DNA of 64,000 bases from Nitrospina sp. GTDB lineage: Bacteria; Nitrospinota; Nitrospinia; Nitrospinales; JACRGP01. Positions within the stretch are counted from its first letter, which is position 1. Each line of letters begins with the position of its first letter. Made by a program: the position numbers and the translations under genes. The DNA lies in the NCBI GenBank assembly GCA_024648695.1, contig JACAVV010000005.1, positions 186,001 through 250,000 on the forward strand, written 5' to 3'. Shown piece by piece: positions 6,645 to 53,146 of this stretch. The notes beneath the pieces were generated by a model, which saw nothing but the letters and a program-made list of their open reading frames with translations, ran no database searches and was not told the DNA's origin.

Positions 6645-6788
6645 AGGATCTCATGAGCCCTTTCTTCCCTGATTATACTCAAAAAATTCAAAACCTTACA
6701 GGAATTTTAAGCAAATTTTGGGGGCCATAAAATGGCAGGTGTTTCAGCTGTTCTGATCGAGTTTGGTCTGTGGAAAGAGGTAGGAAAC

Positions 6789-7202
6789 CTAACCGGGGTT
6801 CAACACTTCGTCAATAATTTCAAGGGATTCTTTATAAAGGTCGGGGTCCAGGATGAATCCGGGAATGTGGGTATCCGGAAGGCTTTTCAGAAAAGGTATG
6901 AGTGACTGCAAAATTTCGTGAGCATTGGTAAGCGATTCGTTTTGTATCCTGAGGGATTCGCCCTTCGAAACGTTTTGCTGGATCGAGTCCAAAGCCTTCT
7001 GCAAACTTCGGCCTGTTTGCATTAAGGTGGCGAGGGATTCTTGAGTTTGTGCCATCAGCGGACTCAACTCTTCGGGAGGTTTCCTGTGCTCGTCGAAATA
7101 GGGTTGGCGGTTTTCGATCACCGCCTGGGAGATCCTGCTAAAGCGCGCACGCACCAGGTTTACTTTTCTCAGAGTGAACAGAATTTTTTCTTGTGCATCC
7201 AT
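6789..7202 (-). CDS. Small helical protein, paralogue 2 of a tandem pair
   Basis: This 137-residue soluble, probably all-helical protein is not recognised. It shares a clear pattern with the gene just upstream: V-x-L-x-RARFS-x-I near residue 17, then a P-PEE-x-x-x-LMAxTQ segment near 45. The ATG at 7202 overlaps the upstream stop (TGATG), which points to translational coupling; a GTG three bases earlier is also possible. The N-terminal helix spacing resembles small FlgN or chaperone-like helical bundles, but no named family can be claimed. Nearness to cheB makes a signalling or motility role possible. Confidence 0.75.
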   Translation of the reverse strand: MDAQEKILFTLRKVNLVRARFSRISQAVIENRQPYFDEHRKPPEELSPLMAQTQESLATLMQTGRSLQKALDSIQQNVSKGESLRIQNESLTNAHEILQSLIPFLKSLPDTHIPGFILDPDLYKESLEIIDEVLNPG

Positions 7203-7627
7203 CACAATTCTTTCTTGTCCAGAACCTGTTGCACCAACATCAATCCTTGTTCATACACTCTGGGTTCGAAGGAAATGCCGCCGGCTGAAAAGTCGGATAG
7301 ACCTTCAAAAAAATGTTTTACCTCTTTCAAGCGTTCCGCGGTTTGACCCAAAGCCCAATCCTCGATACAAACCCGAAACGCTTCTTCCCTGGGGGTGCTT
7401 TCCCGAATATTATTCCAGGAAGTCACCAGAATATCCGAAGCCTTTAACAATTCAGAAAACTGCCTCTGCGTTTCCGCCATCAATACGCCCCACTCTTCAG
7501 GAGGCTGTTCGTTGCGCCGGATGTATTCCATTCGATGGTCGTTGATCGTCTGCATGATTTTACTGAACCGTGCACGAAGCAGGCCCACCACAGAGAGGAC
7601 CGACTTTAAATGATCCTGATCCTCCAA
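7202..7627 (-). CDS. Small helical protein, paralogue 1 of a tandem pair
   Basis: This 141-residue soluble protein is the partner of the next gene on this strand. Shared positions include V-x-L-L-RARFSKI (about 13-22), QPPEEWG and LMAETQ (about 40-53), and a C-terminal helix that ends in LxQxVLDxxE here and in IIDEVL in the paralogue. The TTG start is supported by a strong ribosome site, GGGAGG, about seven bases upstream. Tandem duplication followed by divergence is the simplest history. The function is unknown, and secondary structure appears helical throughout. Confidence 0.75.
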   Translation of the reverse strand: MEDQDHLKSVLSVVGLLRARFSKIMQTINDHRMEYIRRNEQPPEEWGVLMAETQRQFSELLKASDILVTSWNNIRESTPREEAFRVCIEDWALGQTAERLKEVKHFFEGLSDFSAGGISFEPRVYEQGLMLVQQVLDKKEL

Positions 7628-7675
7628 AGAACACCTCCCAAACTAAATACGTGTCCACACCGGCATATGCCGATG

Positions 7676-8419
7676 TTACAGGATACCCACTCCCCGTACT
7701 GCGGCTTCCATCTGTTCTTTTTGAGAAAAATCAACCGCTATCTTATTGGCTTCTTTTTCAGAGTTGTAATCACCCAGGCGAACCGTGTGCCATTGGCGTT
7801 TCATAGAATCCCACATACTCAACACATAAGGAGAGTAACCTCGTTTCTTCAAATCATCTGCCAATATATCAGCATTGATGCGGTCAAGGAAGGCCCCCAC
7901 CTGAACGGTGTATCCGCTTCGAATCGACGTTTTGTGAAATCCTGCAAACAAGTCCGAATCATTGGCGCTGACGGACCGGATTTGGCCTCCGGCAGAATTC
8001 ATCCGCGATCCTTTTTCCGGAGAGGATGCCAGTGAAGTCTTTTTTCCGTCCGGCCTTTTCCCGGCCCGGTCTTTTTCTTCCAGAGGGAAATCGGTTTCAA
8101 TGGATGCGCCCGGTTTCCGGGCTTTCGCTTTGGGGTCACCACTTGCCGCTGGATCCACCGCTTTTCCGGGAGTGGACTTATCCAATTGCGGAATGTCCAG
8201 GCTCGCGACGGAAATTTTCGCATCGGACCCTTCTTTTAAGCTCACTTTTTTGGGCTTAACGTCTGAAGCCTTACGTTCCGCTAGCTGGGGTTTCTTATCA
8301 GTGGAGGGAGGAGGTATTTTAGCACCCACAACCATTCCAAAAAGGAAGATCATGAGGCCCAAAAAAGAAAAACCAAGGGATAAAAAAATGACACGTCGGG
8401 TATTCAGGGTCAGTTTCAT
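7676..8419 (-). CDS. SPOR-domain membrane protein
   Basis: This 247-residue bitopic protein has a short cytoplasmic start, one transmembrane helix at about 12-33, and a long Lys/Pro/Ser/Asp-rich linker (about 35-165). It ends in a SPOR domain (about 168-247) with YTVQVGAFLDR and WHTVRLGDYNSEKEA. SPOR domains bind denuded glycan strands of septal peptidoglycan, so it probably localises to division sites in the periplasm, like FtsN or DedD. The ATG at 8419 is preferred over an in-frame GTG nine bases earlier because GAAGAG lies eight bases before it. Confidence 0.85.
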   Translation of the reverse strand: MKLTLNTRRVIFLSLGFSFLGLMIFLFGMVVGAKIPPPSTDKKPQLAERKASDVKPKKVSLKEGSDAKISVASLDIPQLDKSTPGKAVDPAASGDPKAKARKPGASIETDFPLEEKDRAGKRPDGKKTSLASSPEKGSRMNSAGGQIRSVSANDSDLFAGFHKTSIRSGYTVQVGAFLDRINADILADDLKKRGYSPYVLSMWDSMKRQWHTVRLGDYNSEKEANKIAVDFSQKEQMEAAVRGVGIL

Positions 8420-8737
8420 GGTACACACTCTTCAAATGTAGTGGAATTGGATGTTTTTAAAAAACGTTATAAGTATAACATTTTCAATAAGATAAAGCAA
8501 TATACTTATGATTAATTGTTGTATTGTGGACCCCTTTGAAGACCCTTACCCCACCATTACATTTCCCAAGGGCTTCGATGTTTTGTAAAATCCCACTTTT
8601 TATCTGTTCATTTAAACCATTACCGTTGAAATCAACCTGGTTTTGACACCATTTCAACACGTTTTCACTATTCAAAACTCCAGCCTGACTACCAGATGAA
8701 CTTTACTTTATAAATAGTTACAGGATATTTTTTCTGA

Positions 8738-8754
8738 TTGGCACAGGACTTGAT
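8738..8754 (+). promoter_or_regulatory. Sigma-54-like promoter, imperfect
   Basis: TTGGCAC, five bases, then TTGAT fits the -24 element perfectly, but the -12 element has GA in place of the conserved GC. It points towards the small gene at 8902 and would give a leader of about 135 bases. Confidence 0.35.
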
Positions 8755-8870
8755 TTAATATTTGCAAGATGGCGTTACTGCAAAAACAACAACGGAAAAA
8801 ATTTGCAATTATTGCGGATACCGAGTCTCATCCAATCAATTTCTATTTATATATGGAGCTCGGTTGACTT

Positions 8871-8888
8871 GGTTAAAATGATTTAACC
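8871..8888. promoter_or_regulatory. Perfect palindrome before the small gene
   Basis: GGTTAAA and TTTAACC form a perfect seven-base inverted repeat with an ATGA loop, placed directly in front of the AAGGA and start codon of the next gene. It could be an operator or an RNA hairpin affecting translation. Confidence 0.4.
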
Positions 8889-8901
8889 TTTAAAAAAGGA
8901 A

Positions 8902-9204
8902 ATGTTTAAACTGAATGCAAAAAATATAATGGCTAAAGAAATGACATCAGGGGATGGCGTATCCTGCTCCAATGATTTTGCATTGGAAAACAATAGCGCT
9001 AAAGATGCTGAAGTTTTTATTATCCTTGGGGGTCGGCCTTTTTCCAAAGTACAGATCCCGCAACACGGTGTCAAAATGTACGATTTAAAAAAGAACCTTT
9101 CCATTGCAAAACTCAACGGAAAGCCGGTCAGTATGGACGATTGGGCCTTTGTAATTAATTCCCGGGATAATACAGTTCCCATTATGATACATTGTACAGA
9201 ATAG
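8902..9204 (+). CDS. Small protein of unknown function
   Basis: This 100-residue hypothetical protein is not recognised. It has no signal peptide or membrane segment. The N-terminal third is Ser/Asn/Lys-rich, while the remainder (VFIILGGRPFSKV ... DWAFVINSRDNTVPIMIHC) reads like a small beta-rich domain. It is judged real because it is followed by a strong hairpin terminator and preceded by promoter-like and palindromic signals. The AAGGA before this ATG is only one base away, so the in-frame ATG at residue 10 is an alternative start. Confidence 0.55.
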   Translation: MFKLNAKNIMAKEMTSGDGVSCSNDFALENNSAKDAEVFIILGGRPFSKVQIPQHGVKMYDLKKNLSIAKLNGKPVSMDDWAFVINSRDNTVPIMIHCTE

Positions 9205-9528
9205 TCTGGTTCTCACCGGCCATGGTCTCAATTTTAAGTTCTTAAACCGGATATTTTGTCTAAAACCTTTTTAGTTAATAATTCTTCTTTCAGGCCACTG
9301 ATTCCATTCACAAATGGAGTCAGTGGCCTTTGTGCGATGGTCACCCGGCCTTTTCAAAGGCAGTTTTGGGAAGAAATGAAAAAAATCACGAGAGTATTTT
9401 TTCCAAAAAAATAGCGGGGTATTGAGGCGTTGTGAAAGGATGTTAAATGCCGAAGCGTTCCCGGGCATTGGCCTCGCTGATCTGTTCCAGTTACGGCACC
9501 AATTGGAAATTAAAAAGAAAAAACCGGC
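9205..9528. other. Intergenic region with a strong hairpin
   Basis: About 320 bases lie between the small gene and the convergent rlmM. Apart from the 16-base-pair hairpin at 9293-9328, no gene, promoter or repeat is seen. Confidence 0.5.
9293..9328 (+). terminator. Long-stem hairpin terminator
   Basis: GGCCACTGATTCCATT pairs with AATGGAGTCAGTGGCC around a CACA loop. The stem is sixteen base pairs with a single G-T wobble. Only a short TTT follows, so termination efficiency is uncertain. Confidence 0.55.
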
Positions 9529-34355: not shown

Positions 34356-35297
34356 ATGAGCGAAACCCAGGAAACGGAAGAAACCTCTTCCGGTTTTTTT
34401 TCCAAATTAAAAAAAGGCCTGTCTAAAACACGTCAATCGCTGGCAGGCGGATTCGATAATATTATTCACGGTAAAGCCAAGGTAGAAACCAGAAACCTGG
34501 AAGACCTTGAAGAAGCTTTGCTTATCGGTGATGTCGGATTCGAAACGACATCGATAATCCTTGAAAAACTCAAGAAGGGCGTGGCCGATGAGCGACTGCG
34601 AACTCAGGAGGAAGTATTTGAGCAATTGAAGAATATCATGGTGGACATGCTGGAAACTTATCAGAAAGCTCCTGTGCAACCCGACTCGCCCCCTAAGGTC
34701 ATTCTTGTGATTGGCGTGAATGGATCCGGGAAAACCACCACCATAGGCAAGCTGTCGCAAAAATGGACGGAGGAAGGCAAAAAAGTCATTCTCGCCGCAG
34801 GCGACACCTTTCGCGCCGCCGCCATTGAGCAACTGCAACAGTGGGCGGACCGCGTCGGTGTTTTCATCGTAAAGCAAAAAAGCGGATCAGATCCTTCAGC
34901 GGTGGCGTTCGATGCCGTGCAGGCGGGAAAAGCGCGTGGGGCCGATATTGTGCTTGTGGACACCGCCGGCCGACTGCAAACCAATCAGAACCTGATGGCG
35001 GAGCTGGTCAAAATCAAGCGCGTGATCGGTAAAGTGATGCCGGAAGCGCCGCACGAAACCCTGCTGGTGCTGGACGCCAGTATCGGGCAAAACAGTGTGT
35101 CGCAGGCCAAACTTTTCAATGAAGCGTTGTCTATTGACGGGCTGGTGATGACAAAACTGGATGGAACGAGTAAAGGCGGAGTGTTACTGAACATCACTCA
35201 GGAATTAAAACTTCCGGTGCGTTATATCGGAATCGGAGAAAAAACCGAAGACTTGCAGGAGTTCGATCCCAAAGCCTTCGTAGAAGCCCTCTTCTAA
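34356..35297 (+). CDS. ftsY: FtsY, signal recognition particle receptor
   Basis: This 313-residue SRP GTPase has an N domain (about 15-100) and an NG core with P-loop GVNGSGKTTTIGKL (about 128), the DTFRAAA motif, VDTAGR, TKLDGTSKGG and the closing IGIGEKTEDLQEF. Its acidic N-terminal A domain is very short, as in many non-enteric bacteria. It docks ribosomes carrying SRP at the inner membrane for co-translational membrane-protein insertion. It lies alone on the plus strand within a minus-strand glycan region. GGAG precedes the ATG. Confidence 0.98.
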   Translation: MSETQETEETSSGFFSKLKKGLSKTRQSLAGGFDNIIHGKAKVETRNLEDLEEALLIGDVGFETTSIILEKLKKGVADERLRTQEEVFEQLKNIMVDMLETYQKAPVQPDSPPKVILVIGVNGSGKTTTIGKLSQKWTEEGKKVILAAGDTFRAAAIEQLQQWADRVGVFIVKQKSGSDPSAVAFDAVQAGKARGADIVLVDTAGRLQTNQNLMAELVKIKRVIGKVMPEAPHETLLVLDASIGQNSVSQAKLFNEALSIDGLVMTKLDGTSKGGVLLNITQELKLPVRYIGIGEKTEDLQEFDPKAFVEALF

Positions 35298-35389: not shown

Positions 35390-35875
35390 TTAGCTCGAAT
35401 GATCCTGTCGGCGAATCCAGTCAATTTGTTTTTTCAGGATGAACTGGTGAATCATGTCTTCGCTATCCACATCCAGTCCGCTGGTGAATTTGAATCCCAG
35501 GATTTTTGAAAGCGGCGTGCCGTTGTTCCTTTTATTGATGTAGTCTGCTTTGGCCTCCAGAACCACCGGTCGCTCATTAGGCAAACCTATCTTGATCTTT
35601 ACCTTGTCGAGCCCATCCGTCATGGGTTCATAAAACTTCAGGGAAACTCCGCCAGCACTCAAATCGTGGATGTCTGAAGTGATGATCTCACCTTTTCTCG
35701 TCATCAGCATGGCTTCCATCGGGAACGTTTCCTCAATATTCAGACGAAAACATTGGCGGTTTTCCTGTGGAATCAACACCGAGTCATTACGCCTGCTGAA
35801 TAGCCGCTTGTACCAGGGAGTTTTCAATCCTTTTTGATTGTGTTTTTGAATATTCGTTTTTACCTGGCTAGCCAT
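35390..35875 (-). CDS. PilZ-domain protein
   Basis: This 161-residue protein has a basic N-terminus and a PilZ domain (about 45-150), with both c-di-GMP-binding signatures: the R-x-x-x-R of NRQCFRLN and the D-x-S-x-x-G of DLSAGGVSL. It should bind cyclic di-GMP and may adjust motility, pili or exopolysaccharide. The ATG at 35875 is chosen because AAGGAGA lies nine bases upstream; a longer frame exists. A near-perfect sigma-54 promoter lies about 90 bases upstream, which suggests shared control with the pilin operon at 49.7-52.6 kb. Confidence 0.88.
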   Translation of the reverse strand: MASQVKTNIQKHNQKGLKTPWYKRLFSRRNDSVLIPQENRQCFRLNIEETFPMEAMLMTRKGEIITSDIHDLSAGGVSLKFYEPMTDGLDKVKIKIGLPNERPVVLEAKADYINKRNNGTPLSKILGFKFTSGLDVDSEDMIHQFILKKQIDWIRRQDHSS

Positions 35876-35963
35876 GTTCCGGTTCTCCTTTTTGAAAATA
35901 CCAATCTGAAATACATCCATGTAACTACCCTTACGGATTTTCTTTCGAATTGGTTTAGTAAAA

Positions 35964-35980
35964 AGCAAAAGCGGTGCCAG
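35964..35980 (-). promoter_or_regulatory. Sigma-54 (RpoN) promoter for the PilZ gene
   Basis: On the minus strand CTGGCACCGCTTTTGCT has TGGCAC and TTGCT with the correct five-base spacer. It matches the consensus at all key -24 and -12 positions. The predicted leader is about 78 bases. Confidence 0.7.
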
Positions 35981-36136
35981 AAAAATTTATTTCCGGTAGC
36001 AAGGCTAAAGCCCCAAAATTCAACAGAAAATCAAGAAGTTAAATCTATGGAAAACAAAAGCTAAATAGCTACCCGGCAAACTTTTCCCTGTCAAGGGACA
36101 TAAATTCCATACTCGAAAAATACTCTTATTGCCATT

Positions 36137-52851: not shown

Positions 52852-52868
52852 AGCAATCCTCGTGCCAA
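52852..52868 (-). promoter_or_regulatory. Sigma-54 (RpoN) promoter for the pilin operon
   Basis: On the minus strand TTGGCACGAGGATTGCT fits the full YTGGCACG-N4-TTGCW consensus without a mismatch. It points to the TPR and minor-pilin genes, with a leader of about 240 bases, long but free of other genes. Confidence 0.7.
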
Positions 52869-53146
52869 AACTGCAACCAAACAGAAAAACGGACAAATCC
52901 CTTTAAATCAAGCATTTTAGATGCTTAAAAAAACATTACCAGCTAATTCATATGTTTAATTTTTTACAAATATTTAATATTAGTATGAATTTTCATAACA
53001 AATTAAGTCGAGATCGCTAGAATTTAAAAAGCTTTTATACAGAAGAAGGAATGATTTTGGAGCGATGGAAAGGAATGTTCAAACCCGCATTGGGAACCGT
53101 TGCGCCTGTTTATGGTTTCGATTTGATACGAGTTTTTATATGTTGA

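Follow-up and report, generated by a model that had tools for sequence, protein, structure and literature searches.

YcgR of Escherichia coli and YpfA/MotI of Bacillus subtilis are c-di-GMP-binding PilZ proteins that act on the flagellar motor, and transcription from a sigma-54 promoter requires a specific activator. In Pseudomonas putida, the gene of the PilZ protein FlgZ (PP4397) is transcribed under sigma-54 and FliA, as stated in excerpts of the study (PMC6093933), while excerpts of the work on Desulfovibrio DVU1063 place the activator sites at least 100 bp upstream and give the consensus tGGcacg/tTGCt (PMC4641369).

The gene discussed here lies in a Nitrospina genome (4.2 Mb, 56 contigs), within the window, that is, the whole stretch of 64,000 nucleotides that was analyzed. 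With a probability of about 0.7, it is transcribed from a sigma-54 promoter by an activator acting on flagellar sigma-54 promoters as well, and its product tunes motility. Placement in the phylum Nitrospinota is borne out by FtsY, whose two nearest named records, Nitrospinaceae OFTM191 and Nitrospinota B2T1L10, are each 70% identical. A literature search for Nitrospinota and PilZ found nothing, the word Nitrospina was absent among the matches listed in a further search, and, by term search, PilZ and Nitrospina are absent from the main text of PMC12316311 and PMC3162934.

The sigma-54 site and the PilZ protein

The features of the locus, with a second promoter in the window, are as follows.

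35964–35979, minus strand: sigma-54 promoter, −24/−12 elements TGGCAC-N5-TTGCT, sequence TGGCACCGCTTTTGCT (exact match, read directly)
35953, minus strand: predicted transcription start, placed from the −12 position (C at 35965)
35390–35875, minus strand: PilZ-domain protein of 161 aa carrying the motifs RxxxR and DLSAGG (Pfam PF07238)
34356–35297, plus strand: ftsY, the convergent neighbor, which fixes the orthology of the PilZ gene
36075–36087, minus strand: proximal putative activator-binding dyad GGAAAAGTTTGCC, 108 bp before TGG (sequence match)
36096–36108, minus strand: possible distal dyad GGAATTTATGTCC, weaker, 129 bp before TGG (sequence match)
52852–52867, minus strand: second sigma-54 site, on the TPR/minor-pilin side, without the dyad (exact match)

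The first-pass annotation had placed TGGCAC-N5-TTGCT on the minus strand at 35964–35980, about 90 bases before the PilZ gene. The match is indeed exact, at 35979–35964, position 35980 being the C that precedes TGGCACCGCTTTTGCT on the minus strand, and the ATG (35875) lies 88 bases downstream of the last base of the site. The GG and GC elements stand at the spacing correct for sigma-54 (TGGCAC-N5-TTGC). The same annotation considered two such sites improbable by chance, and the counts agree: TGGCAC-N5-TTGCW has two exact matches in the window against a mean of 0.10 in 100 shuffles, none of which had two, and the whole genome holds 14 exact matches, all ending in TTGCT, where the reversed pattern has 2, from which it follows that some single matches, roughly one in seven, may be due to chance. 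One of the 14 (L003) sits within a coding frame. With one mismatch permitted, the excess in the window is weak (4 vs 2.15), while the TGGCAY variant occurs at 21 sites in the genome against 4 for the control and, summed over 61 genomes, at 674 against 83. The genome has one rpoN match (PF04552, 204 bits); the sigma-54 activator domain matches 25 times, with 17 scores above 150 bits and the eighteenth at 88 bits. Judged from its sequence, the PilZ gene has a sigma-54 promoter and not a chance match.

The encoded protein scores 31.1 bits against PF07238 (cutoff, 22.5). RxxxR and (D/N)xSxxG are present and the PilZ motifs are kept in the orthologs; the product is predicted to bind c-di-GMP on the strength of RxxxR and DxSxxG, both conserved. 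At an E-value threshold of 0.001, Pfam reported PilZ alone, without an N-terminal YcgR/PilZN domain, and for this reason the protein is not filed as YcgR. Among solved structures, YpfA (PDB 5vx6, E 2e-8), which we take to be the MotI clutch, is the nearest by profile, with a match that spans the PilZ domain only. An alternative in-frame ATG at 35920 is a less likely start, because the orthologs align from 35875.

The PilZ promoter in related genomes

A protein search found relatives of the PilZ protein in 32 of 61 genomes, and 30 loci were read, the Nitrospina locus (hereafter, own) included. In 17 of 18 larger loci ftsY was found by tblastn, facing the PilZ gene and mostly adjoining it; in L049 the distance is about 3 kb, none was seen within the 2.2 kb remaining to the contig end in L047, and in L055 the PilZ gene itself falls under the tblastn cutoff. 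An exact TGGCAY-N5-TTGCT occurs upstream of PilZ in 7 of the 30 orthologs, or 6 of the 29 relatives, namely the own gene (g1), four of the five in g10 (G020, G022, G044, and G050), and one each in g15 (G038) and g16 (G047); shuffled upstream regions yielded it in 0 of 6000. None of the four same-family genomes (g2, g3) has the exact site, although one of them (G002) carries CGGCAT-N5-TTGCT, with one mismatch, together with the dyad. The site is degenerate in G033 (g10), and no site was found upstream of PilZ in any g4, g14, g13, or g6 locus read. Upstream DNA was short at two loci, L043 (g4, 23 bases) and L022 (g3, 203 bases). Conservation in close relatives had been named beforehand as a check on the site, and its absence from orthologous upstream regions as the reason to give it up. 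The check is passed in part, since the site is kept in orthologs of three other genera (g10, g15, and g16), while the four same-family genomes lack its exact form.

A second kind of element, resembling sigma-28 promoters (TAAAG-N14/15-GCCGA-like), was found in 18 of the 30 ortholog upstream regions, with a shuffle rate of 0.28%. Elements resembling TAAAG-N15-[GT]CCG precede PilZ in 5/5 g10, 4/4 g14, and 9/11 g4 loci, where L043, with its 23 upstream bases, is one of the two g4 loci without it, and in g10 they lie downstream of the sigma-54 site. Sigma-28 control was rejected for the own genome, which has no matching element before PilZ. In other genera, these patterns are suggestive of a sigma-28-like element that joins or replaces the sigma-54 site of PilZ, a reading kept at that strength because a related pattern shows no genome-wide excess (259 vs 308 in the control) and because g4 and g14 are related. 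FliA scores above the cutoff in 52 of 61 genomes, many of them without PilZ, and thus its presence does not separate the models.

The upstream dyad and the genes behind it

A dyad, GGAA-N7-CC (ideal form, GGAA-N5-TTCC), was newly found about 108 bp before the PilZ promoter. It was noticed by aligning 22 sites (one from G004) and scanning 260 bp upstream, and a putative activator site at least about 100 bp upstream is thereby present at −108 and, in weaker form, at −129. In the own genome, the element GGGAAANNTTTTCC is common to five promoters at −104 to −112, matching 11 of 12 positions at PilZ and fliK, 10 at flgB, and 12 at two further sites, C15 and C34; a score of 10 or more is reached at 25 of about 64,000 window positions. 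The strict GGAA-N7-CC occurs at −129 to −101 in 4 of 21 own sites (PilZ, flgB, C15, and C34), the imperfect fliK dyad failing this form, and in none of 12 other 29-bp bins upstream of the same sites. In 5000 shuffles, three or more own sites never had the dyad in the −129 to −101 bin, a test that is partly circular because the discovery set included the PilZ promoter. The position of the dyad in relatives is an independent test and is not circular: of the seven exact-site orthologs, own included, six carry a dyad within −108 to −110, −127 to −129, or both, and the seventh, G044, has it at about −142.

The joint pattern (dyad, 88–116 bp, promoter) gave 64 rows from 38 of 61 genomes, corresponding to 61 distinct promoters, all of which were read; the control gave 0 in any genome. 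The following lie behind these promoters.

TpsB/ShlB-type: 20 of 61
FliK: 7 of 61
PilZ: 6 of 61
FlgB: 5 of 61
Sigma-region-4 proteins, about 80 residues: 5 of 61
FliL: 4 of 61
Promoter directed toward the 3′ end of a kelch gene: 4 of 61 (own genome, G001, G003, and G038)
Other or none: 10 of 61

Names were profile-checked on examples (FlgB, TIGR01396, 100.6 bits; ShlB, PF03865, 95.2 bits; FliK, PF02120; FliL, PF03748; Sigma70_r4), the remainder being assigned by blastp grouping, and the kelch identity was checked with Pfam for the own gene only. FlgB, FliK, and FliL recur behind dyad promoters in several genera, and no recognizable flagellar gene lies downstream of the own sites C15 and C34. 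Because TpsB stands behind 20 of the 61 sites, the activator may serve more than flagellar genes.

Several observations concern sigma-54 promoters in their own right. The gene most often found with the dyad promoter is that of the ShlB-type two-partner secretion porin (L180, L182, L185, L186, L189, L190, L198–L203, L211, L213, L214, L221, L223, L225, L229, and L232), and stand-alone sigma-70 region 4 proteins of about 80 residues follow the dyad and sigma-54 promoter in five g14 genomes (L222, L226, L227, L230, and L231). The kelch-facing promoters of four genomes (L206 4218–4300, at G000:C34:116217; L209, L177, and L184) have about 40 conserved nt and no clear gene behind them, a candidate noncoding RNA. 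Two own sigma-54 sites each precede a copy of one 61-nt noncoding stretch; the copies have 92% identity and contain a strong hairpin (z −6.95 and −3.66), which makes them a candidate sigma-54 small RNA pair (L011 1431–1490, minus strand, at G000:C39:18189–18248; L014 1528–1591, plus strand, at C53:117538–117601). An Rfam search of four loci gave no match at the gathering score and one subthreshold riboswitch match, with none at the pair. Copies in relatives were not convincing, as 34 of 61 genomes match at E up to 1, all with at most 32 nt outside the own genome.

The PilZ gene among flagellar and pilus regulons

The dyad of the PilZ promoter is common to flagellum genes, namely flgB (strict) and fliK (imperfect) in the own genome and FlgB, FliK, and FliL in relatives, so that production of the sensor most likely accompanies that of the flagellum and the PilZ gene most likely belongs with the flagellar sigma-54 regulon, not with a pilus regulon. 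The enhancer-binding activator of flgB and fliK (fliL in relatives) would bind upstream of the PilZ promoter, at about 108 and 129 bp, where it would recognize one or two dyads similar to GGAA-N5-TTCC, and so switch the promoter on. The DNA would loop between dyads and promoter, RNA polymerase with sigma-54 would start near 35953, and the PilZ product would be made alongside the flagellar rod and hook; on binding c-di-GMP, it would most likely tune or brake the flagellum in the manner of YcgR, FlgZ, and MotI. A candidate for the activator system, by domains and name resemblance, is a PAS kinase (6699–8027) with an NtrC-type regulator (8011–9381) at G000:C1:6699–9381, the regulator having FlbD as third among its NCBIfam matches, below the cutoff of that model.

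The first-pass annotation had instead proposed one RpoN regulon joining c-di-GMP response and pilus function. One PilR-like activator serving the PilZ gene and the type IV pilin genes would suit the exactness of both window sites, the action of PilZ proteins on pili in other bacteria, and a PilR-like regulator candidate (L158, named by eye). A common sigma-54 is not sufficient for a common regulon, though, and the dyad is absent from both own pilin-side promoters, the site at 52867–52852 and that of a PilA-type pilin (L008), just as no recognized pilin gene lies behind any of the 61 dyad promoters in the 61 genomes; the pilus regulon is rejected on account of these dyad-free promoters and is now quite improbable. 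The first gene behind 52867–52852 encodes a small TPR protein, starting 254 bases downstream and followed by minor-pilin-like genes, and without a dyad this site falls outside the activator regulon of the PilZ promoter. It was seen at the own locus alone among 12 loci read, the other 11 being those of TPR homologs in relatives; this is weak evidence because the homologs are multicopy and may be paralogs. A G004 site sharing the pilin-side spacer was discarded, as it is not pilin-linked and has a transglycosylase-like frame downstream.

The high count of TpsB, the most frequent downstream gene (20/61), could also mean that the PilZ promoter is under an activator of TpsB and adhesion (surface attachment), with flagellar genes as secondary members. 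This is unlikely, since flgB and, with an imperfect dyad, fliK are the members assigned in the own genome, none of its dyad sites was seen to precede TpsB, and FlgB, FliK, and FliL recur in several genera. That the site is a chance match and the PilZ gene uses another promoter is very improbable indeed; the two reversed-pattern matches and the absence of the exact site in the nearest relatives speak for it, but it is rejected because of the conservation in orthologs, with the exact site at the PilZ gene in six relatives of three genera (0/6000 shuffled regions) and the dyad at matching distance.

Other repeats accompany the sigma-54 sites of this genome. A TTTAAAGGG-like stretch lies 32–40 bp before the TGG of several of them, both pilin-side sites included (window 52899–52907, minus strand; upstream of L008 and L009). 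Upstream of L008, TGTCA-N8-TGACA was seen by eye, which we take to resemble PilR half-sites, and a palindrome ATCTCAAATTGA(G/A)AT, possibly the site of another activator, is common to the regions upstream of L010 and L141.

Membership in the flagellar regulon moves the PilZ gene out of its supposed pilus regulon; on this reading, control of motility by c-di-GMP would be installed while the cell makes its rod and hook. For the Nitrospinota, a phylum that is largely uncultured and includes marine nitrite oxidizers, the analysis also yields a definite enhancer motif, by which members of the regulon can be predicted in related genomes. More tentatively, and with the odds somewhat against so broad a statement, Nitrospinota may share a GGAA-N5-TTCC sigma-54 regulon coupling rod/hook assembly, a c-di-GMP receptor, a two-partner porin, and small noncoding RNAs, with the receptor gene having switched between sigma-54 and sigma-28 in evolution.

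Among known proteins, the gene product is like YpfA in its best profile match among solved structures, confined to the PilZ domain, and unlike YcgR in that no N-terminal YcgR domain was found; its regulation would differ from that of YcgR and YpfA/MotI. The closest precedent is P. putida FlgZ, likewise a PilZ gene under sigma-54 and coupled to flagellar genes, which in excerpts of the paper lies in the flgM-flgN operon and has a YcgR-type N-domain (PMC6093933), whereas the gene here adjoins ftsY, has the PilZ domain alone, and varies in promoter class between genera. As for the activator, the proposed system resembles DVU1063 of Desulfovibrio in its NtrC-type activator, sigma-54, flagellar genes, distant upstream sites, and tGGcacg/tTGCt consensus, as given in the excerpts (PMC4641369), and, as far as the partial account goes, FlrBC of Vibrio in joining an activator and sigma-54 to flagellar genes. 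What sets it apart from both, within those excerpts, is the GGAA-N5-TTCC dyad and the membership of TpsB and PilZ.
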